Source: Muribaculaceae bacterium (GTDB taxonomy: Bacteria > Bacteroidota > Bacteroidia > Bacteroidales > Muribaculaceae). From it: a stretch of DNA of 64,000 bases. A program made the position numbers and the translations under genes. The stretch is taken from the NCBI GenBank assembly GCA_017626045.1, contig JAGAJP010000040.1:1-64000 (forward strand). The letters run 5' to 3'. The first letter of the stretch is position 1; each line of letters starts with the position of its first letter. Below are positions 8,388 through 55,731 of the stretch, piece after piece. The notes below the pieces were generated by a model. It was not told the DNA's origin and searched no databases. It saw only the letters and a program-made list of their open reading frames with translations.

Positions 8388-9491
8388 TTTCGTCTGGTCG
8401 GGAATCGGGGGGATGTCAATTCTCTTCACTTTCCAGTAGCCTGATTTATTACTTCCTATGCGTTCGATTATGCCAAGATTGCGAAGAGTTGCGATATGAT
8501 TGCGTACCATACGACCACTCAACCCTAACGCCTTGCCAATTTTGTCGGCACTTGTTCCCGGAGTATTGTTAATAAGAGAGGCGATGTTCCATACCACTTC
8601 TGCAACCTGTGGATATTTTGAACGAATGTTATTAGGAAATATATTAGGAATGTTATTAGGAAATATATTAGGAATGTTATTAGGAAATATACCGGACACT
8701 TTAATAGGAACACATTCAACCTTTTCTCTTATTGTCTCAGTTTCACCTCTTGAAAGTGTTGCCAGAATTATTTCAAGCATAAACTCAACGAATGGTGTTG
8801 ATTCACCTGCAACCGTAGATGAAGCGATAGCATCGTAATAGGCTTGCTGATTCGAAAACACCATATTCTCTACAGGAAGATGTGCAAATAAGGAATTAAG
8901 TTTAGAAAGTATAAGAGATTGCCATAAGCGGCCGGTTCTACCATTCCCATCTATAAAGGGATGGATAAATTCAAATTCATAATGAAAAACGCATGACCGA
9001 ATCAGAAGATGGTCATCAGCATTTTTCAGCCAATCAAATAAATCGGACATTAAAGCCGGAACTCGATCCGCAGGTGGAGCCAAATGTACACATCCAGTTT
9101 CGCCAAACACTCCGACACCACCACATCTCCAGTGTCCCGGATTGTCTACCAATGATTGCATCATCGTCTTATGAGCCAGAAGCAAGTCCTTTTCGTTGAA
9201 AGGATTTAGATTCGGAAATAGATCGTATGTGGCTATCGCGTTCTTGACCTCCTGTATTTCTCGCAACGGGGCAACCACGTTTTTACCATTGATAATGTCA
9301 TGTACTTGTCCTTCCGTAAGTTCGTTGCCTTCAATAGCAAGTGAACTGTGAATCGTCTTTATTCGATTTGCCTTACGCAAGCGCAATTCCGTGTCATTTT
9401 CCAACAATATAGAGTAGCGCTCAATCTTGGCTGATATTTCCGCCACAAGATTGAGAATCCGTGAAGTAATTTTAAACGGAGGAGTATACAT
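8385..9491 (-). CDS. Fic-domain protein (AMPylator) with C-terminal winged helix
   Basis: 368 residues. The Fic N-terminal part carries an inhibitory motif SLAIEG (Ser50-Glu54) of the S/TxxxE(G/N) type, so it is a class II Fic that self-inhibits. The active-site loop is complete: HPFIDGNGRTGR from His177. After the Fic core lies a linker made of an 8-residue repeat (NIFPNNIP, nearly three copies, about residues 267-290), followed by a winged-helix region (SADKIGKALGLSGRMVRNHIATL). It probably transfers AMP from ATP to a protein; the target is unknown. It has its own promoter and is a single-gene unit. Confidence 0.9.
   Translation of the reverse strand: MYTPPFKITSRILNLVAEISAKIERYSILLENDTELRLRKANRIKTIHSSLAIEGNELTEGQVHDIINGKNVVAPLREIQEVKNAIATYDLFPNLNPFNEKDLLLAHKTMMQSLVDNPGHWRCGGVGVFGETGCVHLAPPADRVPALMSDLFDWLKNADDHLLIRSCVFHYEFEFIHPFIDGNGRTGRLWQSLILSKLNSLFAHLPVENMVFSNQQAYYDAIASSTVAGESTPFVEFMLEIILATLSRGETETIREKVECVPIKVSGIFPNNIPNIFPNNIPNIFPNNIRSKYPQVAEVVWNIASLINNTPGTSADKIGKALGLSGRMVRNHIATLRNLGIIERIGSNKSGYWKVKRIDIPPIPDQTK
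8624..8691 (-). repeat. 24-bp in-frame tandem repeat in the Fic gene
   Basis: A 24-bp unit runs for 2.8 copies without mismatch (8624-8647, 8648-8671, 8672-8691). Each copy encodes eight residues, so gain or loss of units keeps the frame and changes the length of the linker between the Fic core and the winged helix. Confidence 0.95.
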
Positions 9492-34855: not shown

Positions 34856-34924
34856 TTTAAAATTCTTAGTTTTGTTTTGACTTTAATAAAAGAGTGTCAA
34901 ATAAGGGAGCTGAGTTCGGGTGCC

Positions 34925-34996
34925 TTGCCGTCCTTAGCGCAGCCGCGACCCCTCGAGAGAAAGAACCGTGAGGGTCATTCGCATTCCGACGGCAGA
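34925..34996 (-). promoter_or_regulatory. Structured intercistronic leader before rpsD
   Basis: In the rpsK-rpsD gap, TGCCGTC (about 34926-34932) pairs with GACGGCA (about 34988-34994), enclosing a second stem GACCCCTC/GAGGGTC. The nested stems directly upstream of the S4 gene suggest an autoregulatory S4-binding RNA, as known at this position in other phyla. No sequence match to a known leader was tested. Confidence 0.4.
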
Positions 34997-35007
34997 CTAC
35001 GGGAGCA

Positions 35008-40462: not shown

Positions 40463-40861
40463 TTAATAAACGTAGCATAATACTTCGCCACCGACCTTGA
40501 GTTCGCTGGCTTCCTTATTTGTCATCACGCCACGCGAAGTGGAGATGATGGCGATACCGAGACCGTTGAGCACGCGCGGCATGTCCTTGTAGCCGGTATA
40601 CTGGCGAAGACCGGGACGAGACACGCGGCGAAGCGCCTTGATAGCGCTGACCTTGTCGACCGGATCATACTTGAGGGCAATCTTGATGGTGCCCGAAGGA
40701 GTCGGGCCTTCCATGAACTTGTAGTTCAGGATGTAGCCCTGTTCGAAAAGGATCTTGGTGATCTCTTTCTTCATTTTCGAAGACGGAACCTCCACCACAC
40801 GGTGACCCGCATGGATGGCGTTGCGCAGTCTTGTCAAATAATCTGCAATTGGATCAGTCAT
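40463..40861 (-). CDS. rpsH: 30S ribosomal protein S8
   Basis: 132 residues (MTDPIADYLTRLRNAIHAGH; C-terminal STSRGVMTNKEAS signature). It binds the central domain of 16S rRNA. In most bacteria it directly follows rpsN; here 12.6 kb separate the two. It is the first gene of the downstream ribosomal unit and has its own promoter. Confidence 0.98.
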   Translation of the reverse strand: MTDPIADYLTRLRNAIHAGHRVVEVPSSKMKKEITKILFEQGYILNYKFMEGPTPSGTIKIALKYDPVDKVSAIKALRRVSRPGLRQYTGYKDMPRVLNGLGIAIISTSRGVMTNKEASELKVGGEVLCYVY

Positions 40862-40920
40862 TTGTTTTTTTGTTTTAAATTGATTCAGATGTACCGAACA
40901 ATATTTAATACTCTCGCGTC

Positions 40921-40962: not shown

Positions 40963-40993
40963 CAAAATTACTAAAAATTTGCTGATTATGCAA
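40963..40993 (-). promoter_or_regulatory. Promoter for rpsH and the downstream spc/alpha genes
   Basis: Minus strand TTG (40993-40991), exactly 20 bp, TAATTTTG (40970-40963) is a near-consensus Bacteroidales promoter. It lies between the synthetase cassette and rpsH, so the downstream ribosomal genes do not depend on transcription through the cassette. Confidence 0.88.
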
Positions 40994-41071
40994 GAATTGT
41001 TCATCCGAGGAGAGAATGGTTAGACCTATTTAACTTTATTTAACTATTTTTAAGAGTCTATTATTCCCCTT

Positions 41072-41572
41072 TCAGTGCTCTCCGGGGGATGAGACGGAGA
41101 TGGAGAAGACATAGCGGAGGGTCTGACCGGTCTGAGTGAACGGGTCGTCTGACGGCCATTGACGGGGGTCGTCGGGAATATTGCCACTTCGCTTGACGGC
41201 AGACTCCTTGCGGGTCCAGAGAGCGGTGAAAGTCTCACCCGGAGCGGTGGACGACTCTACTGCACGCGACTCTTCCGGGGAGAGCGCGACTGCAAGCAAC
41301 TCTGCAAAAGGGGGACTCTGGATGTCCTCGATATCGCAACCCACAGGTGCAGAGTCAACTGCCGCCATCACCGCCGACTCACAATGGGAAAGGGAAAAGT
41401 GTATGTCGTGACGCGACGGGAAAAACGGTTTTCCGAAGTCATCAACCTGAATGGCAGGTAAGACCGTGATGCCGCAATACTGCGCAAGGAGAGCGCCGAG
41501 CGTTCTCCTTGCCAAAATACTCTTCACGTCCGGCGAACAGCCGGGAGGAATATCGTCGATTCTGTAAAACAT
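41072..41572 (-). CDS. Sfp-type 4'-phosphopantetheinyl transferase
   Basis: 166 residues from the ATG at 41572, two bases past the exporter stop; the longer frame would overlap the exporter. Motifs: GKPFF, HFSLSHCESAVMAAV, the Mg-binding VGCDIE, and FTALWTRKESAVKRSG (the W-KEA-K motif). It loads phosphopantetheine onto carrier domains and surely serves the T domains of the neighbouring synthetase. It is shorter than classical Sfp (about 220 residues), closer to compact family members. Last gene of the cassette. Confidence 0.88.
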   Translation of the reverse strand: MFYRIDDIPPGCSPDVKSILARRTLGALLAQYCGITVLPAIQVDDFGKPFFPSRHDIHFSLSHCESAVMAAVDSAPVGCDIEDIQSPPFAELLAVALSPEESRAVESSTAPGETFTALWTRKESAVKRSGNIPDDPRQWPSDDPFTQTGQTLRYVFSISVSSPGEH

Positions 41573-41574
41573 AA

Positions 41575-43326
41575 TTACCGCTCCCCCTCGGAAGCATCGC
41601 TCTGCCATTTCATGGTGAGGAGATTCTGTCCGAACAGATATTCGTAGTTCATATCGTCGCAAGTCTTCTTCATCAGAAGGAGACCGATGCCGGTGCCGGG
41701 ATCCTGCTCTATGGGATTGAAGGGCGCGCCCTCGTCTCTGACGAGCACCGAATAACCGGAACCGGACTTGACAATCCGCATATCGATCATCGAGCGTCGC
41801 TTTCCGGCAAGTGCATGACGGATGACATTACCGAGACTCTCCTCGCAGGCGAGCACAATCTTGTTGCGCAGTTCGTGGGAGACACCGCGAAGCTTCAGCC
41901 AGTCTTCCGCCTCTACAAGCACCTCCATCTGGTCTTCAAGCGAAGGATGCAGCGAGACATCGAGCATCATTTCAGGATTCTCTGAAGGGATGAGCAGGAA
42001 AGGCATGTGTTCACCCTTTCGGGTGAGCGCAAAGGGAAGAAGGATGAGTACCACGCACATCTGGCCGCATGCGAAGCCCCACCACGGATTCAGCCATTCC
42101 CTTCCGGAAACCGAGAGCGCGGAGAAAAGCCAGAAAAACACCATCGGCAAGAGCGGCTGTCCGAGGGAGATGACGAGAGCCAGCGACTTATGGCCATAGA
42201 TCTGATATACCGGGATAAGCACATACACCACGCACTGCAGTATGATGTTTGCGGCAAAAGCCGGAAGAGCCAAATGAATCATCGCCACGGAACCGGGCTC
42301 GACAATGCCGAAAAACGACACGATCCAACCCGGGAAAAGGATAAGGATGAGGGCGAGAGCCGAGAGGCCGACCGCAAGGAAGGAATAAGCCTTGCCAAGC
42401 ACGAGCGCCACTCCCCTATTGTCGCCGGACCCCTTCAATATCGCCGCAACAGGCTGGAATGACTCGAGGGTGCCGGTGAGGATGATCATCGAGAACTGCA
42501 GTAGATACATACAGATGGACAGGGTAACGATGCCGTCCGAGCCGAGATAGCGGATGGCGACGGTGTTGTTGCCGAGCAGCTGCACGGCTATGAGCATGGT
42601 GGCGATACCGAACGGGAGTCCCATAGCGGCTATCTTGCCAAGGTTTCGCAGCGAGCGGGGCATCATGAACGAGAGGGAGCCTTTCTTCAGGAAATGCGGA
42701 GACATCACGGAGAGAGCAGCCACATAACTGAGCACAGTGGCGAAAGCCGCGCCTGTCATACCCCAGTCGCACCAAACGATGAACGCATAGTCGAGACACA
42801 GGTTTACAAGAGTGCATACAGCGACGGCGGCGGTAACACGCTTCGGTTCTCCGTCAAGAGTCACGAACATCTGCGTCACAGCCATCACCATATAGACAGG
42901 AGATGCCGGCACTATAACCCTAAGATATGCGGCGGCATAAGGCTGGAGTGCGGGATCGGGACACAAAAGTGCCACCAGACTGTCGAGAAACATGAATCCG
43001 AAGACACCGATAAGGATGCCGACACCGGCAATGACGGACAGTACAATAGAGAAGAGGCCCGAAGCCTCTTCCCTTTTGTGATTGCCCATAGCCACTCCCG
43101 CGAGCATCGATCCTCCCGTGCCTATCAGGATGCAGATCGCAAACAGCGTCTGCATCACCGGCGACGCTATGTTGATGGCGCTCATAGCCGTCTCGTTGAT
43201 GAAATGGCTGAGCATTATGCCGTCGACAAGCGTACCCACCTGCGAAGCCGCAGCGGTCAGCACCGAGGCGAGGAGGAAGCCGCGAAACGCCTTACCTACA
43301 AGATAAGAAGAGCGTGTCGATGTCAT
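41575..43326 (-). CDS. MATE-family exporter fused to an RsbW-like kinase (HATPase) domain
   Basis: 583 residues. Residues about 1-445 are a 12-helix MATE transporter (LVDGIMLSHFINETAMSAINIASPV; ILIGTGGSMLAGVAMG; second half VVYVLIPVYQIYG). Residues about 455-580 are a GHKL ATPase of the anti-sigma kinase type, with N-box (IVLACEESLGNVIRHA), G1 (RDEGAPFNP) and G2 (GTGIGLLLMKKTCD) boxes intact. The fusion is real by frame: no stop or start separates the parts. MATE proteins expel small molecules using H+ or Na+. Here the attached kinase probably phosphorylates the STAS protein of the same operon or is held by it. ATG overlaps the synthetase stop (ATGA). Confidence 0.88.
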   Translation of the reverse strand: MTSTRSSYLVGKAFRGFLLASVLTAAASQVGTLVDGIMLSHFINETAMSAINIASPVMQTLFAICILIGTGGSMLAGVAMGNHKREEASGLFSIVLSVIAGVGILIGVFGFMFLDSLVALLCPDPALQPYAAAYLRVIVPASPVYMVMAVTQMFVTLDGEPKRVTAAVAVCTLVNLCLDYAFIVWCDWGMTGAAFATVLSYVAALSVMSPHFLKKGSLSFMMPRSLRNLGKIAAMGLPFGIATMLIAVQLLGNNTVAIRYLGSDGIVTLSICMYLLQFSMIILTGTLESFQPVAAILKGSGDNRGVALVLGKAYSFLAVGLSALALILILFPGWIVSFFGIVEPGSVAMIHLALPAFAANIILQCVVYVLIPVYQIYGHKSLALVISLGQPLLPMVFFWLFSALSVSGREWLNPWWGFACGQMCVVLILLPFALTRKGEHMPFLLIPSENPEMMLDVSLHPSLEDQMEVLVEAEDWLKLRGVSHELRNKIVLACEESLGNVIRHALAGKRRSMIDMRIVKSGSGYSVLVRDEGAPFNPIEQDPGTGIGLLLMKKTCDDMNYEYLFGQNLLTMKWQSDASEGER

Positions 43327-46300
43327 ATATCAAAGAAGTTTAGTGACTTGATCGCCTTGATAAAGCGGCTCACATACTCATGCGAAGTCGGATTCCAGCG
43401 GAACCCGATACGATATAGAATCTGGCTGGTGAAGTCAGACTCATATCGGATGAAGGTGGTCTGTGAAGACTGGTCCGAATCATAGGCAAGGAGTGGCTGG
43501 AGGGCATTGACCTTCTCCGGCACATCCATTGCCTCGCGCTCCGCATCCATGAACTCTTCATTCTCAACAGCCTTGACAGGGCATCCCGCGCCGTTGAGGA
43601 TATAGAGCACGTCGCCGAGCGGCAGGCGGTGGTTGTTGCAGGGATGGAACACCACCATCTCCTTAGGCGTCGAGGCAAGGAGGAGAATAGCCGCGCACAC
43701 CTCGTCAATCGGGGAGAACTCGCATGGAGCATCGAGCACGGCATAGGGAGCGCATCCAAGCGCCACGTATGCCTTCAGACGACCCATAAACGCGTTGCTG
43801 CTGAAATTAATCTGGAACTCGCCGTCGGAAGCGCGCGCCGAAAGGTTGCCCACGCGCATGATCTTCGCGCTGAGCCCGCGGTCGCGCACTGCGGTAAGGA
43901 TTAGCTCCTCAGCCTTGTACTTGGAGCTCACATACTGGTTGGCGAGGCTCTGTCCGAAATCGAACATGTGCTCCGAGAGCAGAATCTCCGGGTCCGGATA
44001 TCCGTTGACGCTCTCGCCGGCGATGCTCACGGTGGACACATGCACCAGACGGGCGTTCTTCTTCATACAGAAATCAATCAGGTTTCTCACACTCTCCACG
44101 TTGACAAGCTCTATATCGTTGCCGGCGGAGAAATGCTTCACGTTTGCGGCGCAGTTCACCACTGTATCCACGTCGATAGCCGCAGCCACCTCCTCGGGGA
44201 GCGGCGTCGTCACATCGTTTTCTACGATAGAGATTCTTCCGCTTTCGAATGCCTCCTCGAACGAGTCGTCGAAATAATAGAAGAGAAGCGTGCGGAGCCT
44301 GCTTTCCGGGGAGATGTCACCTTTCCGGCGCAGGAGACATACGATCTTGCCGTCATGCTCCGTGAGCAGATGGTGTAGCATGTGTATGCCCATGAAACCG
44401 GTGGCTCCGGTGAGCAACACGTCGCCGAGTTCCTGACGCTCTCCAGTGAGATATGCGTCGATGGAGTTGCGTGCGAGCACATCCTCGAATTCCGACTCGC
44501 GGTGATCGCCGGAAGTCAGCGAGACGTCGGAAGGCGTCACTGCGGCGGCAGTGTGTTTCTTGCCCTCTATCAGTTCCGCGAGCGCACGTGGGGTACGAGC
44601 CTCAAACACGTTCTTATATGTCACGCTATATCCTGACAGCGAAATGGCAGCCACCACCTTGATGGCGCTGATGGAAGTGCCTCCGATGGAGAAGAAATCG
44701 TCGTTGGCGCCAATCCGGTCGTTGGCAAGGACAGATGAGAAGGCATCCGCGATGATGCACTCGAGCTTTCCTTCCGGCTGCACATATTCAGCACCTCCGG
44801 CAATCTCCGGAACAGGAAGAGCCTTGCGGTTGGTCTTGCCGTTGGGAGTCAGCGGCATCTCGTCGATCCTCATGAAGGTGTCCGGCACCATATATTCGGT
44901 GAGTCTTCCGGCAAGATGCTCTTTGAGCGCGTCATTGTCAATCTCGGCAGCCGAAGTGTAATAGAGGCAGAGGTGCTGGATCTTATTGACCTCGCACACG
45001 TTTGCCGCCACCTTTCCGATGCCGTCAAACTCGAGCGCCACGCTCTCGATCTCGCCGAGCTCGATACGCAGGCCGCGGAGTTTCACCTGATGGTCGATGC
45101 GGCCGAGAATCACGATATCTCCGTCGGGAGTCCAGCGGGCAAGGTCGCCGGTACGGTAAGCCTTCTCGCCCTGATATGTCACATAAGCCTCGGCGGTCTT
45201 CTCCGGGAGGTTGTTGTAACCCAGGCCGAGGCCTCTGCCGAAGATATACAGTTCGCCGACAGCGCCTACGGGCAGTTCCCCGCCCCAGGCGTCGACCACG
45301 CGCTGCGAATCGTTGTAGAACGGAGGACCGGCGATGACCGGGGTATATGGAGTCAGCTCGAAATGGTTGCTTCCGACGGTGGTTTCCGTAGGACCGTATT
45401 CATTTACAGTTCTGCCATGGAACCCGGCGTCATACAGTTTTGCGATAAGCGCGGTCTGGAAACCCTCGCCGCCTATATTCAGGTGAGTACATTCTGACAC
45501 CGCCTTTCTGAACTCAGGCAGGTCGAGCATTGCGTCCAGACGGCTCGGCGTGATGTCGAAAGCATCCACATTCTTGTCGAGCATCAGTTTGGCAAGCATG
45601 ATCACATCCTTGCACTCCTCCTCGTTGGCGAGCACCAATGTGTGGCCGCATGTCAGCGAAACACCGAGATTGTTGAGCGACGCGTCAAACGAGATAGTCA
45701 CCAGAAGCATCTCCACCTTCGTCTCGGGACGGTTTCTGAAATACTTGTCATAGTAGCCGTAGAGGTAGTTGGAGATCGCCCTCTGCGGAATCATCACACC
45801 CTTCGGGCGTCCGGTGGACCCCGAGGTATATATCATGTAAGCCACGTCTTCCGGACCTACCGGCACGTTCGGCCTCGAATCGTCTGTCTCCTCAAGTAGC
45901 GACTCGATATCCACGGCGTTCTCATAAAGATGCAGGCGGTCGGCGGTGGTGATGATGAACCGGGCCCCGCTGTCTTCAGTGATGAGGCGTATGCGCTCTG
46001 CGGGATAGTCGGGATCACACGGTATATATGCCGAGCCGGTCTTCATCGCGCCATAGATGGCAGAGATCAGGCTTGCTCTTCTCGGGAGAAGTATCACTAT
46101 CCTGTCGCCGTGGACCACGCCGCGCTTTATCAGCGCGTTGGCGATACGGTTACATTCGTTGTCAAACTCGCGGTAAGACAGTGTGCGGTCGCAAGCCACC
46201 ACTGCATCCACATCCGGAGTCTCGTCGGCTCGTTTCTCCATCTCGCCGTGCATCGATGTGTATGGCACATCACATTTCTTGCCGTTTCTGATGCGGCCGA

Positions 46301-49300
46301 GGATTTCAAGTGCGCGTGAATCGGTCATCACGCCGTCTGCCACTGTCTTTGCCGACACGAGGCTCAGCGACAGGCTCGACATCATCCTGAGGAGCACAGC
46401 CATGTCGTCGAGTCCGAAGCAGGATGTATCGTATTCCAGCACAAGTTCGAAATCATGGGCGGCGTCTTCATACACAAGGAGGGTGAGGGGAACCTTCGCG
46501 GTGTTGAGCGCCAGCGGAATCTCCTCCGCCGACAGAGCCCCCGAGCCCATCGACATATCGATTCCACCCTCGTAGACATACATTATCTCGGGATGTATTC
46601 CCTTGCGGTCCACCAGAGACGTAAACGGATAGAAGTCGTTGTCCTGAGTGGTCAGGAACTGCTTCTGAACGTCAGCTGCGAAATCGGCGGGCGACACCTC
46701 GCGCGGCTTCGCGCAACGCGACACCACCGGAAGAGTCTTCACGAACATACCGGTGGAGCCAAGCAGACGCACGTCGTTTCTGCCGTTGTTGACAGTAGTG
46801 ATCTGTATCGTCTCCTCCCTCACGAGTCTGTGGAGGAGCTGTAGGAACGCCGACAGAAGATAGTTGCTGACGGTAAGACCTCTCTCTGTGCAGAACCGTC
46901 TGATCTCAGCCGACTTCATACCCAGTCTGATGCGGCCCATGCCGCCGGCTATATCATTGTCGGGATGCGCGCTGCGCGGATAGGATGTGGACTCGGAGTC
47001 GCCGACAAGTGTGTCGAACCACTGCTCCGCCTTGTCGAAGGCGTCGCTTTCGAGAAGGTCTTTCTCATAGAGGGCGTGGTCGAGGGCGCTGTATTCCTCT
47101 TCCTCGAGCGCCTCGCCGGCGTAAGCCTTGCGTATTTCGTCCATCAGCAGCATCGCCGACATACCGTCGAAGATGATGTGGTGGCTGTCCATCAGCATAT
47201 ACACATTGTCGAGATACGTGAAGATCTCGCAACGGAAAAGCACGTCGTTATAAAGATGGAAAGGACGGATACGGCTTTGGAAGAAATCAGCGTCGGGCAT
47301 CCTGTCGAGCGCGGTGATCTCGATATGGAAATCCTCGGGTCCGTGAGGCTCCTGCATGACGTCGCCGTTTCGCCACACCATGCGGGTCATCATTCCGGGA
47401 TGCGCCTCGAGGGCTTTCAACACTGCATCGCGAAGTCGCTCGACGTCAGTGCCCGGAGCGAATCGGAACGCCTGCGGGATATTATACTGCAGGGCATCGC
47501 GGTTCATCTCCCAGTCGATATACACGCCCCGCTGATTCTCGGTGAGCGGATAGAACTTGCGCTTGGGAGCGCTCTTGCACTCCTTCGGGACGGTTTCGGA
47601 CTCTGCCTCGGCAATCTGAGTCGCCATGGCGCGGATGGTGGGCGAAGACATGATTCCCTTGGCTGAGAGCTTGACTCCTAGGCGCTTCGCCACGGCAGCC
47701 ACAAGGCGCATCGACATCAGCGACGTCAGGCCTGCCGAAAGGAGGTTGCTTGTGACGCCGAAGCTGTCGTGGCCGAGCACTTCCGCCGTTATGTCGAAGA
47801 GCGTCTGCTCCGTCTCCCCCTCGGGAGCCACTGTCTCCTCAAGTTTCTTCTCGGGTGTAGGAAGTCGCTTGCGGTCTACCTTGCCGTTGGGAGTCAGCGG
47901 CATCTCGTCGATCTTCATGATAAGTTCCGGCACCATGAACTCCGTCAGGTCTGAGCGCATGTATTCCTGAAGCTGCTCGGGGGTAAGGTCGCTCCCTTCG
48001 GCGGGAGTATAGTATCCGACGAGCATCTCGAGGTTGCCGATCTGCTTCACGGCAGCCACAAACGTCTTCACTCCGGGATGTCGGGAAGCCACGGCATCGA
48101 CCTCACCGAGCTCGATGCGGAGGCCGCGTAGTTTCACAAGTCCGTCTGAACGTCCGATAAATTCTATGTCGCCATTGGGCATGAAGCGCGCGTAGTCGCC
48201 GGTGCGGTAAGCCTTCACGCCGTCAATTTCTGTAAATTTCTCGGCCGTGAGTTCCGGACGGTGCAGATAGCCTCGTCCCACTCCGGCCCCGAGGATCACG
48301 AGCTCGCCGGGCAGTCCCTTCGGGATCACCCTGAGGTATCGGTCGAGGATACGGACATCATATCCCTTGATGGGGCGTCCGATGTCCTTGCCGTCGGTAG
48401 CGCCTTCCACCTTGAGCGCGGTGCATATGACAGAGCACTCCGTAGGGCCGTAAAGGTTGAAGAACTGGTAAGGGAGCGCCTTCAGCGGCGGAAGTTTCTC
48501 GCCGCCTCCGCAGAGCACCCGGAGCGACGAGAACTCGAAGAGCGTAGCCATCTGCCAAACGATCTGCGTAGTCATGAAGGTGACGGTGATCTTCTCGCGC
48601 TCCATGTATTCATACATGGCGGTAAGATCCATGCGGATCTCGCTGTCGAAGACATGCACGGTAGCGCCATTTGCGAGAGTCGGATAAAGGTCCATCATGT
48701 GAGCGTCGAAGCCGAAGTTGGCGTAAGCGCCGGTTCGGTCTTCGGAAGTCATGCCCACAAGATTGGTATAGGCCGCCACATAGTTGGCTATGTTATGCTG
48801 GTCAAGCACAACACCTTTCGGTTTTCCGGTAGAGCCGGAGGTATAGAGATAGACCATCGCCGAGTGGGGAGCCGGACCGTCGGCGATCGCGGCGGCAGGC
48901 TCCGGGAGGGTATCGATCACTGAGGCATCTATCACCTCGCCTTTAAAGGCGGGAACAATGGACTTTGCTAGGCCGTCGTCGGAAAGGACAATGCTCACGC
49001 CCGCGTCCTCGATCATGAACATCAGGCGCTCCTCGGGGAAATGGGGGTCGAGAGGCATGTAGGCGCCACCCGCCTTCATCACCGCGATGGGGAATATCGC
49101 CATCAGTTCGGACCTCTCTATCATGATGCCTACCACAGACTCGCGACGCACGTCGAATTTCTCGCGGAGAATGGCGGCAAGGCGGTCGGTGATGTCGTCA
49201 AGCTCGCGGTATGTGAGTTTCCTGTCGCGGTAGACCACGGCGGTATTTTCCGGCCACTGGGCTACAGCCTTGCGGAACATGCCGACGACAGTTGCGTCTT

Positions 49301-50636
49301 TTCCGGCTGAAGACTTGCCTCCTTCGGAAAGGAGGAGTGCCTCATGCGCCTGCGCCTCGTCGGCAAGGGCGAGCCTTGACACGGGGGTGTCGGCGGGAAG
49401 CGTCATGAACTGCCTGAGCACGGTCTCGAACACTGAGGCGAGCGTACGCATCAGCTCCTCGCTGAAGAGGTCGCTGCGGTATTCCACCTCAAGCACGGGA
49501 CGATTTCCGTAGAAGAACAGCTGTCCCGTGATCTTGGCTCCTGTGGCGAGCATGTCGAGATGAATCTCGTCGGGGCGCTCGCCGTTGATGTCGGGCATAT
49601 CGAGGAAACTTCCCTGGTATGAGAACATGAAATCGGAAGAGATTCCGAAATCGGCAGCCGCGTCCATGAAGGAATAGATGTCGAAGTCGCGGGCTGTCTT
49701 CATGTCCTTCTTGGTCTGCGCGAGCAGTGACTCCACGGTGGTGTCGCGGTCGGTCTTGACCCTGACGGGAAGAGTCTTCACCATCATGGCGAAAGTATTG
49801 TCGTAATCGTGGCCTTTTCTGCCGTGATATACAGTGGCGAGAACCACGTCCTCGCGGCGGTTGAGAAGCTGGCACACTATTCCCATTGCAGCTGTTGCGG
49901 GGACGCTCAAAGGCATTCCGGCAGTCTTGCAGTATGCGGCGTATTCCTCCTGGGTGAACGCGAGGTCCACCGCGACCTTATTGTAGGTCTCCCCGGCACC
50001 GGGTTTTTGCGACGCAACATCGGGAAGGATGTCGAATGTAGCGTCGGCTCCCTCGAGCATGGCGGAATAATGGTCGCGAGCCTCTTTCCATGCCTCGCCG
50101 GCGCGGTCTGCCTGCTCGCGCCTTGCCAGCTCATGGATCGACACTGTTTCCTCCGGAATGTCGATGCCTCTAAGGGCGGCGTCGAGGGCGCGGAGTGTCA
50201 CTTTCATGGACGAGCCGTCGAAGATGGTGTGATGGAAGTCCATGAAGAGATATGTGGATTTTTCAGTCTTGATTACCTTTACTCTCGCGAGGGGAGACGC
50301 GTCGGTGAAATCAAACGGAACCACCATTGACTGGGCGGACTGAAGGAGTGCGTCGTCTTCCATCTCCAGCATCTCCACCTGCACCGGCTCAGTCTGAGCG
50401 GGATCTTTCCAGAGGGGATTGCCCTCGGCGTCGAGGATGATTCGGGCCGAGATTCCGGGATATGCCTTAACCAGACTGCGCATAGCGTCGGCAAGGCGTT
50501 CGGGAGTCACGTTGTTGAAACGGAAGAGAAACGGAATGTGATACATCAGTTTCTCCGGATTCCTGACACTCTCGAGATAAAGTCCGAGCTGCGACTGGGT
50601 CAGCGGCAGGCCGGAATATACAGAGTCGTTTTCCAT
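43323..50636 (-). CDS. Two-module non-ribosomal peptide synthetase with terminal reductase
   Basis: 2437 residues. Order by eye: C1 (about 1-430, HHTIFDG at 135), A1 (450-930, YTSGSTGKPKG, YRTGD, NGKVDRK), T1 (940-1010, Ser972 in AGLTS), C2 (1025-1450, HHIIFDG at 1152), A2 (1465-1945, YTSGSTGRPKG, YGPTETT, NGKTNRK), T2 (1955-2025, Ser1988 in GGTS), reductase (2070-2437, GATGFMG, Tyr2235 and Lys2239 in YVSSK). All active-site motifs are intact. The first C domain suggests that the first residue is N-acylated or that a substrate is received. The NAD(P)H reductase would release the chain as an aldehyde or alcohol. Pocket residues by eye: A1 D-A-M-F-V-C-L-V-I (hydrophobic), A2 D-A-N-D-L-I-E-V-G (acidic pocket, perhaps a basic or polar residue); low confidence. 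Confidence 0.95.
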   Translation of the reverse strand: MENDSVYSGLPLTQSQLGLYLESVRNPEKLMYHIPFLFRFNNVTPERLADAMRSLVKAYPGISARIILDAEGNPLWKDPAQTEPVQVEMLEMEDDALLQSAQSMVVPFDFTDASPLARVKVIKTEKSTYLFMDFHHTIFDGSSMKVTLRALDAALRGIDIPEETVSIHELARREQADRAGEAWKEARDHYSAMLEGADATFDILPDVASQKPGAGETYNKVAVDLAFTQEEYAAYCKTAGMPLSVPATAAMGIVCQLLNRREDVVLATVYHGRKGHDYDNTFAMMVKTLPVRVKTDRDTTVESLLAQTKKDMKTARDFDIYSFMDAAADFGISSDFMFSYQGSFLDMPDINGERPDEIHLDMLATGAKITGQLFFYGNRPVLEVEYRSDLFSEELMRTLASVFETVLRQFMTLPADTPVSRLALADEAQAHEALLLSEGGKSSAGKDATVVGMFRKAVAQWPENTAVVYRDRKLTYRELDDITDRLAAILREKFDVRRESVVGIMIERSELMAIFPIAVMKAGGAYMPLDPHFPEERLMFMIEDAGVSIVLSDDGLAKSIVPAFKGEVIDASVIDTLPEPAAAIADGPAPHSAMVYLYTSGSTGKPKGVVLDQHNIANYVAAYTNLVGMTSEDRTGAYANFGFDAHMMDLYPTLANGATVHVFDSEIRMDLTAMYEYMEREKITVTFMTTQIVWQMATLFEFSSLRVLCGGGEKLPPLKALPYQFFNLYGPTECSVICTALKVEGATDGKDIGRPIKGYDVRILDRYLRVIPKGLPGELVILGAGVGRGYLHRPELTAEKFTEIDGVKAYRTGDYARFMPNGDIEFIGRSDGLVKLRGLRIELGEVDAVASRHPGVKTFVAAVKQIGNLEMLVGYYTPAEGSDLTPEQLQEYMRSDLTEFMVPELIMKIDEMPLTPNGKVDRKRLPTPEKKLEETVAPEGETEQTLFDITAEVLGHDSFGVTSNLLSAGLTSLMSMRLVAAVAKRLGVKLSAKGIMSSPTIRAMATQIAEAESETVPKECKSAPKRKFYPLTENQRGVYIDWEMNRDALQYNIPQAFRFAPGTDVERLRDAVLKALEAHPGMMTRMVWRNGDVMQEPHGPEDFHIEITALDRMPDADFFQSRIRPFHLYNDVLFRCEIFTYLDNVYMLMDSHHIIFDGMSAMLLMDEIRKAYAGEALEEEEYSALDHALYEKDLLESDAFDKAEQWFDTLVGDSESTSYPRSAHPDNDIAGGMGRIRLGMKSAEIRRFCTERGLTVSNYLLSAFLQLLHRLVREETIQITTVNNGRNDVRLLGSTGMFVKTLPVVSRCAKPREVSPADFAADVQKQFLTTQDNDFYPFTSLVDRKGIHPEIMYVYEGGIDMSMGSGALSAEEIPLALNTAKVPLTLLVYEDAAHDFELVLEYDTSCFGLDDMAVLLRMMSSLSLSLVSAKTVADGVMTDSRALEILGRIRNGKKCDVPYTSMHGEMEKRADETPDVDAVVACDRTLSYREFDNECNRIANALIKRGVVHGDRIVILLPRRASLISAIYGAMKTGSAYIPCDPDYPAERIRLITEDSGARFIITTADRLHLYENAVDIESLLEETDDSRPNVPVGPEDVAYMIYTSGSTGRPKGVMIPQRAISNYLYGYYDKYFRNRPETKVEMLLVTISFDASLNNLGVSLTCGHTLVLANEEECKDVIMLAKLMLDKNVDAFDITPSRLDAMLDLPEFRKAVSECTHLNIGGEGFQTALIAKLYDAGFHGRTVNEYGPTETTVGSNHFELTPYTPVIAGPPFYNDSQRVVDAWGGELPVGAVGELYIFGRGLGLGYNNLPEKTAEAYVTYQGEKAYRTGDLARWTPDGDIVILGRIDHQVKLRGLRIELGEIESVALEFDGIGKVAANVCEVNKIQHLCLYYTSAAEIDNDALKEHLAGRLTEYMVPDTFMRIDEMPLTPNGKTNRKALPVPEIAGGAEYVQPEGKLECIIADAFSSVLANDRIGANDDFFSIGGTSISAIKVVAAISLSGYSVTYKNVFEARTPRALAELIEGKKHTAAAVTPSDVSLTSGDHRESEFEDVLARNSIDAYLTGERQELGDVLLTGATGFMGIHMLHHLLTEHDGKIVCLLRRKGDISPESRLRTLLFYYFDDSFEEAFESGRISIVENDVTTPLPEEVAAAIDVDTVVNCAANVKHFSAGNDIELVNVESVRNLIDFCMKKNARLVHVSTVSIAGESVNGYPDPEILLSEHMFDFGQSLANQYVSSKYKAEELILTAVRDRGLSAKIMRVGNLSARASDGEFQINFSSNAFMGRLKAYVALGCAPYAVLDAPCEFSPIDEVCAAILLLASTPKEMVVFHPCNNHRLPLGDVLYILNGAGCPVKAVENEEFMDAEREAMDVPEKVNALQPLLAYDSDQSSQTTFIRYESDFTSQILYRIGFRWNPTSHEYVSRFIKAIKSLNFFDI

Positions 50637-50637
50637 A

Positions 50638-50937
50638 TCAGTCGAGATTGAAGAGTTTCGAGAAACCGGTCATGTCAAACACCGGACGCACGGCGGGTAT
50701 AACATTTACCACGCTAAGGTCTTTGCCGGAAGCCTTGACACCTTTAAGAAGCGTGATGAAAGACCGTAGTCCGGCACTGCTTATATATTCCATCTCCGCG
50801 CAGTCGAGCACCACGTCGCCGAGGTCGCCGCCGAGATTCTTCACTTGAGAGTCAAATTCCTGAGACGTCACCGTGTCGAGTCTTCCCTTGACTGCGATTC
50901 GGGTGCCGTTGTCGATTTTTTCGATGTCTAACGTCAT
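50638..50937 (-). CDS. STAS-domain protein (anti-sigma factor antagonist type)
   Basis: 99 residues, a single STAS domain of the SpoIIAA/RsbV type. The phosphorylation loop is MEYISSAGLRSF, with Ser54 in the place of the Ser phosphorylated by RsbW-type kinases. It starts 13 bp after the phosphatase stop and ends 1 bp before the synthetase start, so translation is coupled. Expected partners are the kinase domain of the exporter fusion and the SpoIIE phosphatase. In known systems the unphosphorylated form binds the kinase. Confidence 0.92.
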   Translation of the reverse strand: MTLDIEKIDNGTRIAVKGRLDTVTSQEFDSQVKNLGGDLGDVVLDCAEMEYISSAGLRSFITLLKGVKASGKDLSVVNVIPAVRPVFDMTGFSKLFNLD

Positions 50938-50950
50938 GATATTTACGATT

Positions 50951-53236
50951 TTATTTTTGTATTATGATTTTCAGAATGTTTCTGCCGTCGACTCGGGAGT
51001 ATTCCACCTTTTCTGATAGACGGCGGATCAGGAATATGCCGAGACCACCAACCTTGCGCTCCTCAAGCGGAAGGTCGGTGTCCACATCCGGGGCAGAGAC
51101 GAGGGGATTGAACTCCGGTCCGGAGTCCGAGACGGTCATTGCCTCGGTAGCGGCATCCGACGAGAGCCGGAACTCAATTCTTTCTTCCGGGTCGGCGGGC
51201 GTGGAATAGTTTATCACATTGCTTACCGCCTCCTCGGCTACGAGCATCACCTTGTTGAGCAGACCGTCGTCCCAGCCTTCCCTCTGAGCGGCAAGCTGGA
51301 TTCCCGATATGAGAGTTCCTATTTCTGCGCTGTCATATTTCAGATTCATGGAAACACCGGTGGCTGAGGAGGATATGCACAGCATTGTGATGTCGTCGGC
51401 ATATACGTTGTCGCAATATCTCTTGACTTCGTCGGCAAGAGACGCCACAGCCGTTGATGGCTCCGGCAGACGGTTCATAGTCTCCGATACCGTTTCGAGA
51501 AGTTTTTCCTGGCCGTAAAGCACTCCTTGCGGACTCTCTGCCTCCGACATGCCGTCGGTGTAGAGGAAGAGTGTGTCGCCGGGAGCGAAGGGGCAAGCCG
51601 TCTCGGAATAGGGCATGCCGGGCATCACGCCGGCGGGGAGGCCTGCCGGAAGGTCAAGATAACGGCATCCGTCGCCGGAGCAGACCACTGCGGGATTATG
51701 TCCGGCATTTGCCATGACCATAGTATTGGAGACAGCGTCGATATATCCCACCAGCATGGTGACAAACATATTGGTGGAGTTGTCGGCACACATATTGTCG
51801 TTGATGCGGGTGACGATGTCGGCGGGAGCCATCGCCTGCTGGGCGGCGAAATGGAAGAGGCTCTTGACATAGCTTGTCATGAGGGCGGCGGGAATACCCT
51901 TGCCGCTCACGTCGGCGATTATGAAGTATAGCCTGCCGGCGGACTCCACATAGTCGTACAGGTCGCCGCCGACCTCCATAGCCGACTCCTGATAGGCTGC
52001 GAGAGAGAGCAGCGTTCCTTCCCTTTTGAAGGACGCGTCGCCGGGAGGAAGCAGCGAGCGCTGGATGTCGCGGGCTATCCGGAGCTGTGTCTCCATGTGC
52101 TCTCGCGCTCTCGTGCTTTCCTCTATCTGCACGATATACCTGTTGATGGAGTCGCGCATGTCGGTCATGGCGCGGCTAAGGTTGTCAAGGTCGGAATATT
52201 CGGGAGCCGGAGGTATCGGAGTGTCGAAATCGCCGCTGCCTATTCTTGTGGCGGCATCCGTGAGTCCGTTGAGCGGGCGAAGCGCGCGCCGGAGCGTGGC
52301 ACGGAGCAGGAATATGAGAATCGCAAAACCGAGCACTAAGATGATGAGGAGGGGCAGACGGATTCGCGAGGTCACTTGCGTTACGGAAGTGAGGGGCGAG
52401 GCAGTGCAGAGCACCAGGTTTATGTTTTCAACAGGCGTGAAGGTGCAGATGAAGTCTCTGCCGAGAAATATGCTTGTCTCCCCCTCCTGCAGAGATTTCG
52501 AGATTGCCGGGAGGTTGAGTCTTTTGCTTTTGCCCCTGTCTTCCTCGCGATAAGGGCTCATGGGGTAGCCTTCAAGGAATTTACCCTGTTTTGTCAGGAT
52601 GAACGCATAACTCTCGGGATAAGGGATGAGGCGGTTGAGCTGCTCGTCGAGATAACTGACGGCGACATCGGCTGTTACCACACAGAAGATTTCACCTGCC
52701 TCATTCCTGACCGGGCAGGCGAAAGTTACCATCAGGCAGTCTCCAGCGCCTTCATCGAAATAAGGCTCGCTCCAGATGCCGGAGTTTGAATCGAGGGCGG
52801 CGGTGTACCACTGCTGGCGGGTGTATCTGTAGTCGGTGTCTCCGAGCTGCATGGTGTGGACGCCATCGCCTTCATGACGCATATATTCCATCCATTCCTT
52901 GCCTTGGGACATTCTTTCGGGCACCATCACGATGCCGCAGCCGGAGATAATCGAGTCACTGTCGACAAGAATGCCGAGAGACTCGGAAGCGCTGCTTTTG
53001 ATTTCCTCCGTGGTCTCCTTCTGAAGTTCCTTGACGGAACGCCTAACATTCTGCTCCACGGAATAGAGTCTTGTATCAATGGTGCCAACAAGTTCACTTT
53101 GGAGAAGTCGGGTAATATCCTCAGCCTGCCGCGACTCGTTTTTCACGGCATACAGTTCGACAATCACAGCAATTGCGATGAATATGCCGAAACTAACGAT
53201 TACTTCATATAGAGACAATTTATCCGACAGTTTCAT
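50951..53236 (-). CDS. Membrane sensor SpoIIE/PP2C phosphatase with C-terminal HATPase domain
   Basis: 761 residues. Membrane helix about 8-30; periplasmic Cache-like sensor about 35-285 (PYFDEGAGDCLMVTFACPVRNEAGEIF); second helix about 290-312; HAMP about 312-370; coiled linker; PP2C/SpoIIE domain about 390-615 with metal-binding motifs (EVGGDLYDY, IADVSGKGIPAAL, ANAGHNPAV, FLYTDGMSEAES); then an RsbW-like ATPase domain about 630-760 (LVAEEAVSNVINYS; SDSGPEFNP; GGLGIFLIRRL). It would remove phosphate from the STAS protein in response to an outside signal. Having both phosphatase and kinase-like domains in one chain is a notable layout. First gene of the cassette. Confidence 0.92.
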   Translation of the reverse strand: MKLSDKLSLYEVIVSFGIFIAIAVIVELYAVKNESRQAEDITRLLQSELVGTIDTRLYSVEQNVRRSVKELQKETTEEIKSSASESLGILVDSDSIISGCGIVMVPERMSQGKEWMEYMRHEGDGVHTMQLGDTDYRYTRQQWYTAALDSNSGIWSEPYFDEGAGDCLMVTFACPVRNEAGEIFCVVTADVAVSYLDEQLNRLIPYPESYAFILTKQGKFLEGYPMSPYREEDRGKSKRLNLPAISKSLQEGETSIFLGRDFICTFTPVENINLVLCTASPLTSVTQVTSRIRLPLLIILVLGFAILIFLLRATLRRALRPLNGLTDAATRIGSGDFDTPIPPAPEYSDLDNLSRAMTDMRDSINRYIVQIEESTRAREHMETQLRIARDIQRSLLPPGDASFKREGTLLSLAAYQESAMEVGGDLYDYVESAGRLYFIIADVSGKGIPAALMTSYVKSLFHFAAQQAMAPADIVTRINDNMCADNSTNMFVTMLVGYIDAVSNTMVMANAGHNPAVVCSGDGCRYLDLPAGLPAGVMPGMPYSETACPFAPGDTLFLYTDGMSEAESPQGVLYGQEKLLETVSETMNRLPEPSTAVASLADEVKRYCDNVYADDITMLCISSSATGVSMNLKYDSAEIGTLISGIQLAAQREGWDDGLLNKVMLVAEEAVSNVINYSTPADPEERIEFRLSSDAATEAMTVSDSGPEFNPLVSAPDVDTDLPLEERKVGGLGIFLIRRLSEKVEYSRVDGRNILKIIIQK

Positions 53237-53265
53237 AAAGCTAAATACAAATGTTAAGCATTCTG

Positions 53266-53273
53266 CAAATTTA
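53266..53273 (-). promoter_or_regulatory. Possible -7 element of the synthetase cassette
   Basis: Minus strand TAAATTTG (53273-53266) fits TAnnTTTG and lies 29 bp before the first ATG. The -33 region is weak (TTTAG about 22 bp upstream), so it may be a poor or regulated promoter. Confidence 0.5.
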
Positions 53274-53415: not shown

Positions 53416-53451
53416 AATCAGGATATAGCTTTTGCAAGCCATATCCTGATT
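53416..53451 (-). terminator. Terminator after rpsN
   Basis: AATCAGGATATAGCTT (53416-53431) and AAGCCATATCCTGATT (53436-53451) form a 16-bp stem with one mismatch and a 4-nt loop, followed by TTTTC on the minus strand. It lies 20 bp past rpsN and would end the S10 half of the ribosomal operon before the cassette. Confidence 0.85.
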
Positions 53452-53470
53452 AATTATTTATAATACTGTA

Positions 53471-53773
53471 TTACCAGCTTGCTTTCTTTACACCGGGGAT
53501 GAGACCGGCGGAAGCCATTTCGCGGAACTGGATACGTGAGATACCAAACTGACGGATGTATCCTTTGGGACGCCCGGTCATCATGCAGCGGTTGTGCAGA
53601 CGCACGCGGGAAGCGTTCTTCGGGAGTTTCTGGAGCTTGGTAAGAGCCTCGTAGTCGATATTGCCTTCAGCGTCAGCGAGAGCAGCCTTCTTGAGAGCGG
53701 CCTTCTTTTCAGCATATTTGGCAACCATCTTCTGGCGCTTCAGTTCGCGCGCCTTCATAGATTCCTTAGCCAT
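53471..53773 (-). CDS. rpsN: 30S ribosomal protein S14
   Basis: 100 residues, long zinc-free form ([21 protein letters not shown] near the C-terminus, ending GVKKASW). It lies in the 30S head. It is the last ribosomal gene before the cassette; 9 bp after rplE. Confidence 0.98.
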
Positions 53774-55543: not shown

Positions 55544-55664
55544 AGGTTATATAAAAATATTAACGGATGCATGATGCATATCCAAATAAAAACGGCCGAG
55601 AAGCGGGAAATATTGTGCCTACTTGCCCAAAAAATTTTTGAATTCGGCGATTTCCCGGAATCCG

Positions 55665-55698
55665 GGGCGATGCGGACCCGATGGCGTCCGCATCGCCC
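55665..55698 (-). promoter_or_regulatory. GC-rich hairpin between rplP and rpmC
   Basis: GGGCGATGCGGAC (55665-55677) and GTCCGCATCGCCC (55686-55698) form a perfect 13-bp stem with an 8-nt loop. A TTTTTTGGG stretch lies about 25 bp further downstream on the minus strand. It may be a processing, attenuation or ribosomal-protein-binding site. The rest of the 188-bp gap shows no gene. Confidence 0.6.
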
Positions 55699-55731
55699 GC
55701 CGGGATATTCATTCACTCAGCCAAAGCCTTT

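Follow-up and report, generated by a model that had tools for sequence, protein, structure and literature searches.

Analysis of a 64,000-nucleotide window (positions 1-64000 of a 75,445-bp contig in genome G000) reveals five co-directional genes between the ribosomal protein genes rpsN and rpsH, all on the minus strand at window positions 41072-53236, an arrangement that cannot be explained by chance. These genes, hereafter the cassette, encode a membrane sensor phosphatase, a STAS protein, a nonribosomal peptide synthetase (NRPS), an exporter with a kinase-like domain and a 4'-phosphopantetheinyl transferase (PPTase). Comparison across the genus makes it likely that rpsN-rpsH is a recurrent cargo site in a split operon, and that the cassette is one of its guests. 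Textbooks cite the S10-spc-alpha cluster as an example of selection preserving gene order; repeated loading of this cluster with accessory operons in one genus would mean that an essential operon can become modular, in steps that can be named: split, autonomous leader, then cargo. Genome mining near ribosomal genes can also find biosynthetic clusters, here a peptide-synthetase system with a kinase-like domain built into its exporter.

Unrelated cargo between rpsN and rpsH

We searched 111 genomes of the genus, G000 included, with the uninterrupted rpsN-rpsH DNA of G061, and 85 matched. The interval was readable, with both genes on one contig, in 75 genomes (70 as listed and five after fetching). 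The distance between the two genes is 62-500 bp in 67 of these and 1.3-12.6 kb in the other eight. In four genomes (G029, G065, G066 and G085) rpsN and rpsH are split between contigs, with 0.9-4.8 kb of other DNA from rpsN to the contig end. In G022, G027, G108, G109 and G131 a contig starts or stops within rpsH or fewer than 30 bp upstream of that gene, and in G020 rpsN alone matched. The eight complete inserts hold five kinds of cargo, and the four contig-split genomes add four more, each seen in part (ORF, open reading frame; aa, amino acids):

G000, 12.6 kb: five-gene synthetase system
G021 and G103, 9.4 kb each: GNAT protein and arginine biosynthesis genes
G034 (9.0 kb), G004 (1.9 kb) and G030 (1.3 kb): threonine-aldolase-like beta-eliminating lyase (by Pfam in G034 and G030, by reading in G004), followed in G034 by three proteins of secreted appearance
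G017, 2.6 kb: two proteins of secreted appearance
G011, 2.2 kb: EptA-like phosphoethanolamine transferase
G029, partial: GH31/CBM26 glycosidase and a small ORF, on the strand opposite to the ribosomal genes
G065, partial: 94-aa peptide and an outer membrane protein
G085, partial: MBOAT and DHHW/AlgX-like proteins on one side, Eco57I-like methylase on the other
G066, partial: 169-aa ORF without assignment, reaching the contig end

Related genomes thus hold several unrelated cargoes between the same conserved genes, and the site is empty in the close relatives G101, G110, G112 and G123, as is found at an insertion hotspot. Within the arginine cargo, an argG-like gene was recognised by reading in G021 and G103, and argC-, argD-, argF-, argB-, argE- and argH-like genes by Pfam in G103; argC is listed as an ORF only in G103, and the choice of the longest ORF may have hidden it in G021. 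The 94-aa peptide of G065 (L091 1994-2275, minus strand) contains Cys and a VRGG motif, is encoded beside an outer membrane beta-barrel protein and has no Pfam match; it looks like the putative precursor of a secreted or modified peptide.

A cassette wrongly joined into the ribosomal cluster during assembly or binning would mimic an insertion. The source assembly is a 70-contig draft with 94% completeness, and the tetranucleotide profile of the cassette is slightly off that of four window blocks (r 0.79-0.82, compared with 0.84-0.95 among the blocks, some of which overlap). However, the junctions lie deep within the 75 kb contig, the PPTase end abuts promoter sequence homologous to that of empty sites, and seven other genomes carry different cargo at this position. 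The nearest relatives (G101, G112, G123 and G110) are identical for the two ribosomal flanks, and the contig is therefore not a join of two lineages. We consider such an artefact highly improbable.

The original prediction had proposed comparing the rpsN-rpsH interval across genomes, and had read the insertion as a sign of long-term selection. The comparison shows that the site is recurrently filled, but this cassette is not fixed there: it occupies the interval in only one of the 75 readable genomes (G000), while G006, G023, G061 and G086 carry the five genes at other places. A related explanation is stable adaptive placement, in which the cassette stays next to ribosomal genes because it gains in gene dosage or in the coupling of its expression to growth. 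The intact reading frames, and the orientation of the main genes of all eight complete inserts, co-directional with the ribosomal genes, favor this explanation. In addition to the scarcity of the cassette at the site, it is countered by a terminator between rpsN and the cassette, by close species that differ in cargo and by the contig-split cargo of G029 on the opposite strand. Adaptive placement is therefore quite unlikely, and the distribution of the cassette speaks against long-term selection at the site.

An operon probably split before the cassette arrived

The edges of the insert and the flanking ribosomal genes comprise the following features, in transcription order:

53471..53773, minus strand: rpsN (S14; Pfam PF00253, NCBIfam NF006477), closing the upstream half
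53416..53451, minus strand: intrinsic terminator hairpin 3' of rpsN (about -22.7 kcal/mol, T-rich tail)
53258..53273, minus strand: weak -7-like element by sequence, in a stretch starting TAAATTTG, upstream of the first cassette gene
41024..41056, minus strand: AT-rich GTTAAAT-repeat element 5' of the rpsH promoter; aligns with sequence from empty-site relatives
40963..40993, minus strand: rpsH promoter, TTG (-33) and TAATTTTG (-7), of Bacteroidota type
40875..40909, minus strand: conserved leader hairpin before rpsH, a candidate ribosomal-protein leader RNA by covariation
40463..40861, minus strand: rpsH (S8; Pfam), opening the downstream half

The terminator and the promoter (read from 40993 to 40963) are both located where the original prediction had placed them, and, as it had claimed, neither ribosomal half is disrupted by the cassette. 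The right edge of the insert lies 15 bp past the PPTase stop, where alignment with the empty-site relatives starts. The rpsH promoter was read against what we take to be the Bacteroidota promoter consensus, and the -7-like element against a consensus likewise presumed; no well-spaced -33 element was seen with the latter at 53258..53273.

A tree of seven ribosomal genes from 44 genomes of the genus and one outgroup nests G000 (99-100% support) with G101, G112, G110 and G123, in all of which the site is empty (257-470 bp). These four genomes and G000 have in common the AT-rich element, the promoter and the leader, and their terminators lie at the same place with different sequences. Since these four nearest relatives have terminator, promoter and leader at an empty site, the split in the operon most likely predates the entry of the cassette. 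The terminator and the promoter thus do not mark the insertion. The same tree places G021 and G065 as close sisters (100% support) with different cargo, arginine genes in the former and the peptide with the outer membrane protein in the latter, which suggests cargo turnover. No argG was found anywhere in the G065 genome (84% complete). Of 14 genomes searched for argG, G021 and G103 have it at the site, five (G110, G061, G123, G101 and G017) have it at another place, and in seven it was not found.

We examined 40 rpsN-rpsH intervals under a strict rule: eight filled, 14 wide and empty, and 18 narrow and empty. Terminators were found in 5/8, 10/14 and 4/18 of these, respectively, compared with 1/400 in the shuffled background, and promoters in 6/8, 8/14 and 2/18. 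Wide intervals therefore differ from narrow ones in both terminators (15/22 vs 4/18, p 0.005) and promoters (14/22 vs 2/18, p 0.001), and the difference persists for wide empty intervals (p 0.011 and p 0.008, respectively), all four values ignoring kinship. The operon split is thus tied to interval width. The combination of terminator and promoter, tried as a discriminator of filled from empty sites, was rejected under the strict rule, since it separated wide from narrow intervals instead, and we do not claim that the split alone predicts cargo. We note that the rule passes over hairpins that are good by eye in G021, G103 and G004.

The leader has the layout TTAAATATTG-[5 nt]-loop-[5 nt]-TCAATTTAA, just upstream of rpsH. 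It was matched in 59 of 73 loci across several Bacteroidales families: 39 of 40 in the genus and 20 of 33 elsewhere, the latter being best DNA matches and hence biased towards its presence. Across 19 distinct rows, pairing in the inner stem is intact in 95 of 95 cases, and three of its five positions show several pair types; 2000 shuffled-partner controls average 77 pairs and never exceed 86. The hairpin has no match in Rfam 15. The E. coli S8 protein has its site of action in the 5' region of rplE (PMC4176348). The rpsH hairpin resembles the S4 and L13 leaders of Bacteroidia in being a cis hairpin before a ribosomal protein gene; unlike these, no leader for rpsH stands in the table rows available from that survey, and "rpsH" is absent from its main text (PMC7247131). 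From its position, we would guess that the hairpin is an S8-bound autoregulatory leader of rpsH.

Entry of cargo and the choice of site

These features suggest how the site may work. In this Bacteroidales genus the spc operon has widened at rpsN-rpsH, with a clear split in part of the species, such that the upstream half closes with a terminator and rpsH starts a half with a promoter and leader RNA of its own. Neither half would then need the intervening DNA, and the interval would therefore be a safe landing place for unrelated cargo. Uptake has been repeated, probably by illegitimate insertion, after which homologous recombination between the conserved ribosomal genes on either side would have exchanged the cargo. 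An extended form of this proposal is an integrase-free cargo port, in which the leader makes rpsH and the genes after it a self-regulating unit, the terminator shuts the upstream half and the ribosomal genes act as homology arms for operon swaps between species; we put it forward tentatively, at a little under an even chance.

Several observations weigh against a recurrent cargo site in a split operon, or limit its reach. The genomes are drafts, and the G065 interval spans two contigs with its content known in part. Deep nodes of the tree are weak (9-33%), and the number of independent insertion events is therefore approximate. Filled and empty sites differ neither in terminators (5/8 vs 14/32, p 0.44) nor in terminator and promoter together (4/8 vs 9/32, p 0.40), and only marginally in promoters (6/8 vs 10/32, p 0.04); G004 and G011 are filled without a promoter match. 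The intervals rpsL-rpsG, rpsJ-rplC, rplP-rpmC and rpsK-rpsD also exceed 200 bp in some genomes and are free of cargo, so that width by itself does not account for the use of rpsN-rpsH. Finally, the insert ends show two 12-nt inverted matches (in G021 and G017), and a 17-nt AT-rich match links the right end of G000 with that of G004.

The last two observations, both weak, bear on the possibility that a dedicated site-specific recombinase, acting in trans, targets rpsN-rpsH. The reuse of one site by unrelated cargo would fit such an enzyme, and the 12-nt matches are longer than the 10 nt within which 95% of the shuffles of the direct-repeat test fall. On the other side, a Pfam scan of 27 cargo proteins, part of all cargo ORFs, detected no integrase, transposase or recombinase, and the longest direct repeat between the ends of the eight inserts is 8 nt, equal to the shuffle median. 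Neither a recombinase nor direct repeats of an integrative mobile element were thus found, and with repeats no longer than the shuffle median site-specific integration is unsupported. We regard a dedicated recombinase as unlikely. A plasmid origin is likewise unsupported, as no match in the plasmid collection was obtained for the first two cassette genes (DNA) or for the pump-kinase (protein).

A recurrent cargo site at rpsN-rpsH also stands out from the other intervals of the cluster. From rpsL to rplQ, all other adjacent pairs lie at most 434 bp apart wherever measured in 15 genomes, a set of eight with cargo, chosen for that reason, and seven without, in which many pairs were not measurable. 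The window itself holds two more widened, cargo-free intervals, rpsK-rpsD (34856-35007) and rplP-rpmC (55544-55731), which measure 128-434 bp and 26-331 bp, respectively, over the genomes measured; a widened rpsK-rpsD agrees with the S4 leader that has been published for Bacteroidia ahead of rpsD. In five other genera of the family, rpsN and rpsH are 73 to 323 bp apart, with no cargo (three of the five computed by hand). All 89 genomes of an order-level sample matched, and both parts are present in 55 among the matches listed; the distance, extrapolated from partial matches, has a median of 36 bp over these 55 and is -15 to 131 bp in 54. In the 55th, G195 from another family, the cluster is broken exactly at rpsN-rpsH, with halves about 110 kb apart (L174, rpsH at 9175; L175, rpsN at 9097).

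Small gene sets, including amino-acid biosynthesis operons (ilv-leu), are known to insert into the ribosomal superoperon without destroying it, as described in the available part of PMC8046335. The insertions given there are single events in Gammaproteobacteria and Bacilli, between operons or at rplL-rsmC, whereas rpsN-rpsH is one point inside spc that holds five complete and four partial kinds of cargo in one genus. Literature searches on ribosomal-operon insertions, on synthetases with such switches and on leaders gave no match for the hotspot, the gene system or the rpsH leader among their best-ranked results, in which subscription journals are thinly covered.

The synthetase system and its relatives

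Domain scans and coordinates agree with the gene identities and tight packing of the original prediction. In transcription order the genes are separated by 13 bp, 1 bp, a 4-bp overlap and 2 bp:

50951..53236, minus strand: membrane sensor phosphatase (PDC/dCache, HAMP, PP2C (SpoIIE) and C-terminal HATPase_c_2)
50638..50937, minus strand: STAS (anti-anti-sigma-like) protein (domain scans; alignment of 10 homologues)
43323..50636, minus strand: two-module NRPS, C-A-T-C-A-T-R, 2437 aa (Pfam, NCBIfam; terminal reductase present)
41575..43326, minus strand: MATE exporter with a C-terminal HATPase_c_2 (kinase-like) domain (Pfam PF13581 for the HATPase part)
41072..41572, minus strand: PPTase, Sfp/AcpT-like (Pfam PF01648), with an ATG start at 41572; the listed 196-aa ORF starts at an earlier TTG upstream

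The NRPS has the two A-T modules and C-terminal thioester reductase of a reductase-terminated dipeptide synthetase, with the AusA reductase 4f6c among its matches, and both HHxxxDG motifs are present by eye. Its best NCBIfam match is NF047350 (AusA), at 1065 bits, below the family cut-off of 2500. Substrate codes of the A domains, read by eye, were dropped as unsafe and not used. AusA has the domain order A-T-C-A-T-R; the cassette NRPS differs by an extra N-terminal C domain, and the cassette by its fused pump-kinase and partner-switch genes. Two modules, a terminal reductase and a PPTase are common to the cassette, the AusA/AusB aureusimine synthetase and the gut dipeptide-aldehyde NRPSs, as far as these are described in the available part of the source (Guo 2017, Schneider 2018, via PMC12327764). 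Among reductase-ended NRPS clusters, this synthetase system is a variant in which the pump-kinase and the partner-switch genes form an unusual combination.

SpoIIE/RsbU, STAS and RsbW proteins form partner-switching modules. The cassette likewise combines a PP2C phosphatase, a STAS protein and HATPase_c_2 domains, and by sequence all parts of such a switch appear to be present, including a conserved Ser and a kinase-type HATPase domain. Two differences stand out: (I) a sigma factor is absent, none of the five genes encoding one by Pfam, and (II) the HATPase domains are fused, one to the MATE exporter and one to the phosphatase. In the STAS protein, Ser54 and Gly56-Leu-Arg58 (motif residues by eye) are invariant in 10/10 aligned homologues; from the SpoIIAA motif, we take Ser54 to be the phosphorylated residue. 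The HATPase domain of the pump, which we take to be RsbW-like, has residues that by eye resemble the N-, G1- and G2-boxes of such ATPases, and searched alone it had no PDB sequence match at E 0.01.

The domains allow a tentative working model. The PPTase would arm the synthetase, which may make a dipeptide, possibly N-acylated, and release it reductively as an aldehyde, possibly followed by cyclisation to a pyrazinone; export of the product would fall to the MATE pump. The sensor phosphatase would dephosphorylate the STAS protein and the fused HATPase domain of the pump would phosphorylate it, a switch that could tie export or synthesis to an external ligand. The probable product of the cassette is thus a peptide aldehyde or pyrazinone, which would leave the cell through the MATE pump with its kinase-like domain, under the control of a PP2C/STAS phospho-switch. 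A point to be set against this model is that the PDC sensor, present in G000, G086 and G091, has no match in the phosphatases of G006 and G061, and the external-ligand step is therefore not general.

The pump-kinase occurs in 9 of the 111 genus genomes, and eight of these nine have all five components together, in several gene orders: G000, G006, G023, G061 and G086, and, with an extra gene of 448-451 aa, G091, G092 and G096. This extra gene accompanies distant versions of the system (L171 490-1833; L172 8724-10079; L173 2717-4072), and its L171 copy has weak AMP-binding similarity. In G094, no phosphatase or STAS gene was found in the 19 kb examined. G135 has phosphatase, STAS and pump genes and, at the synthetase position, a 2431-aa ORF that was not compared with the synthetase; its contig ends at the expected PPTase position.

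At the order level, the pump-kinase search returned 5 of 393 genomes, G000 included, and the four named relatives of the protein carry the labels Muribaculaceae (two), Porphyromonadaceae and Bacteroidales. Outside the family, G361 has the five components, and so does G448, where the pump ORF is without the kinase domain. G491 and G140 encode a pump-kinase-like protein with no synthetase within the 19 kb examined. The distant MATE-HATPase-like protein of G491 (L168 8999-10741, minus strand) lies directly after rplQ, at the opposite end of the cluster from the start of the ribosomal genes.

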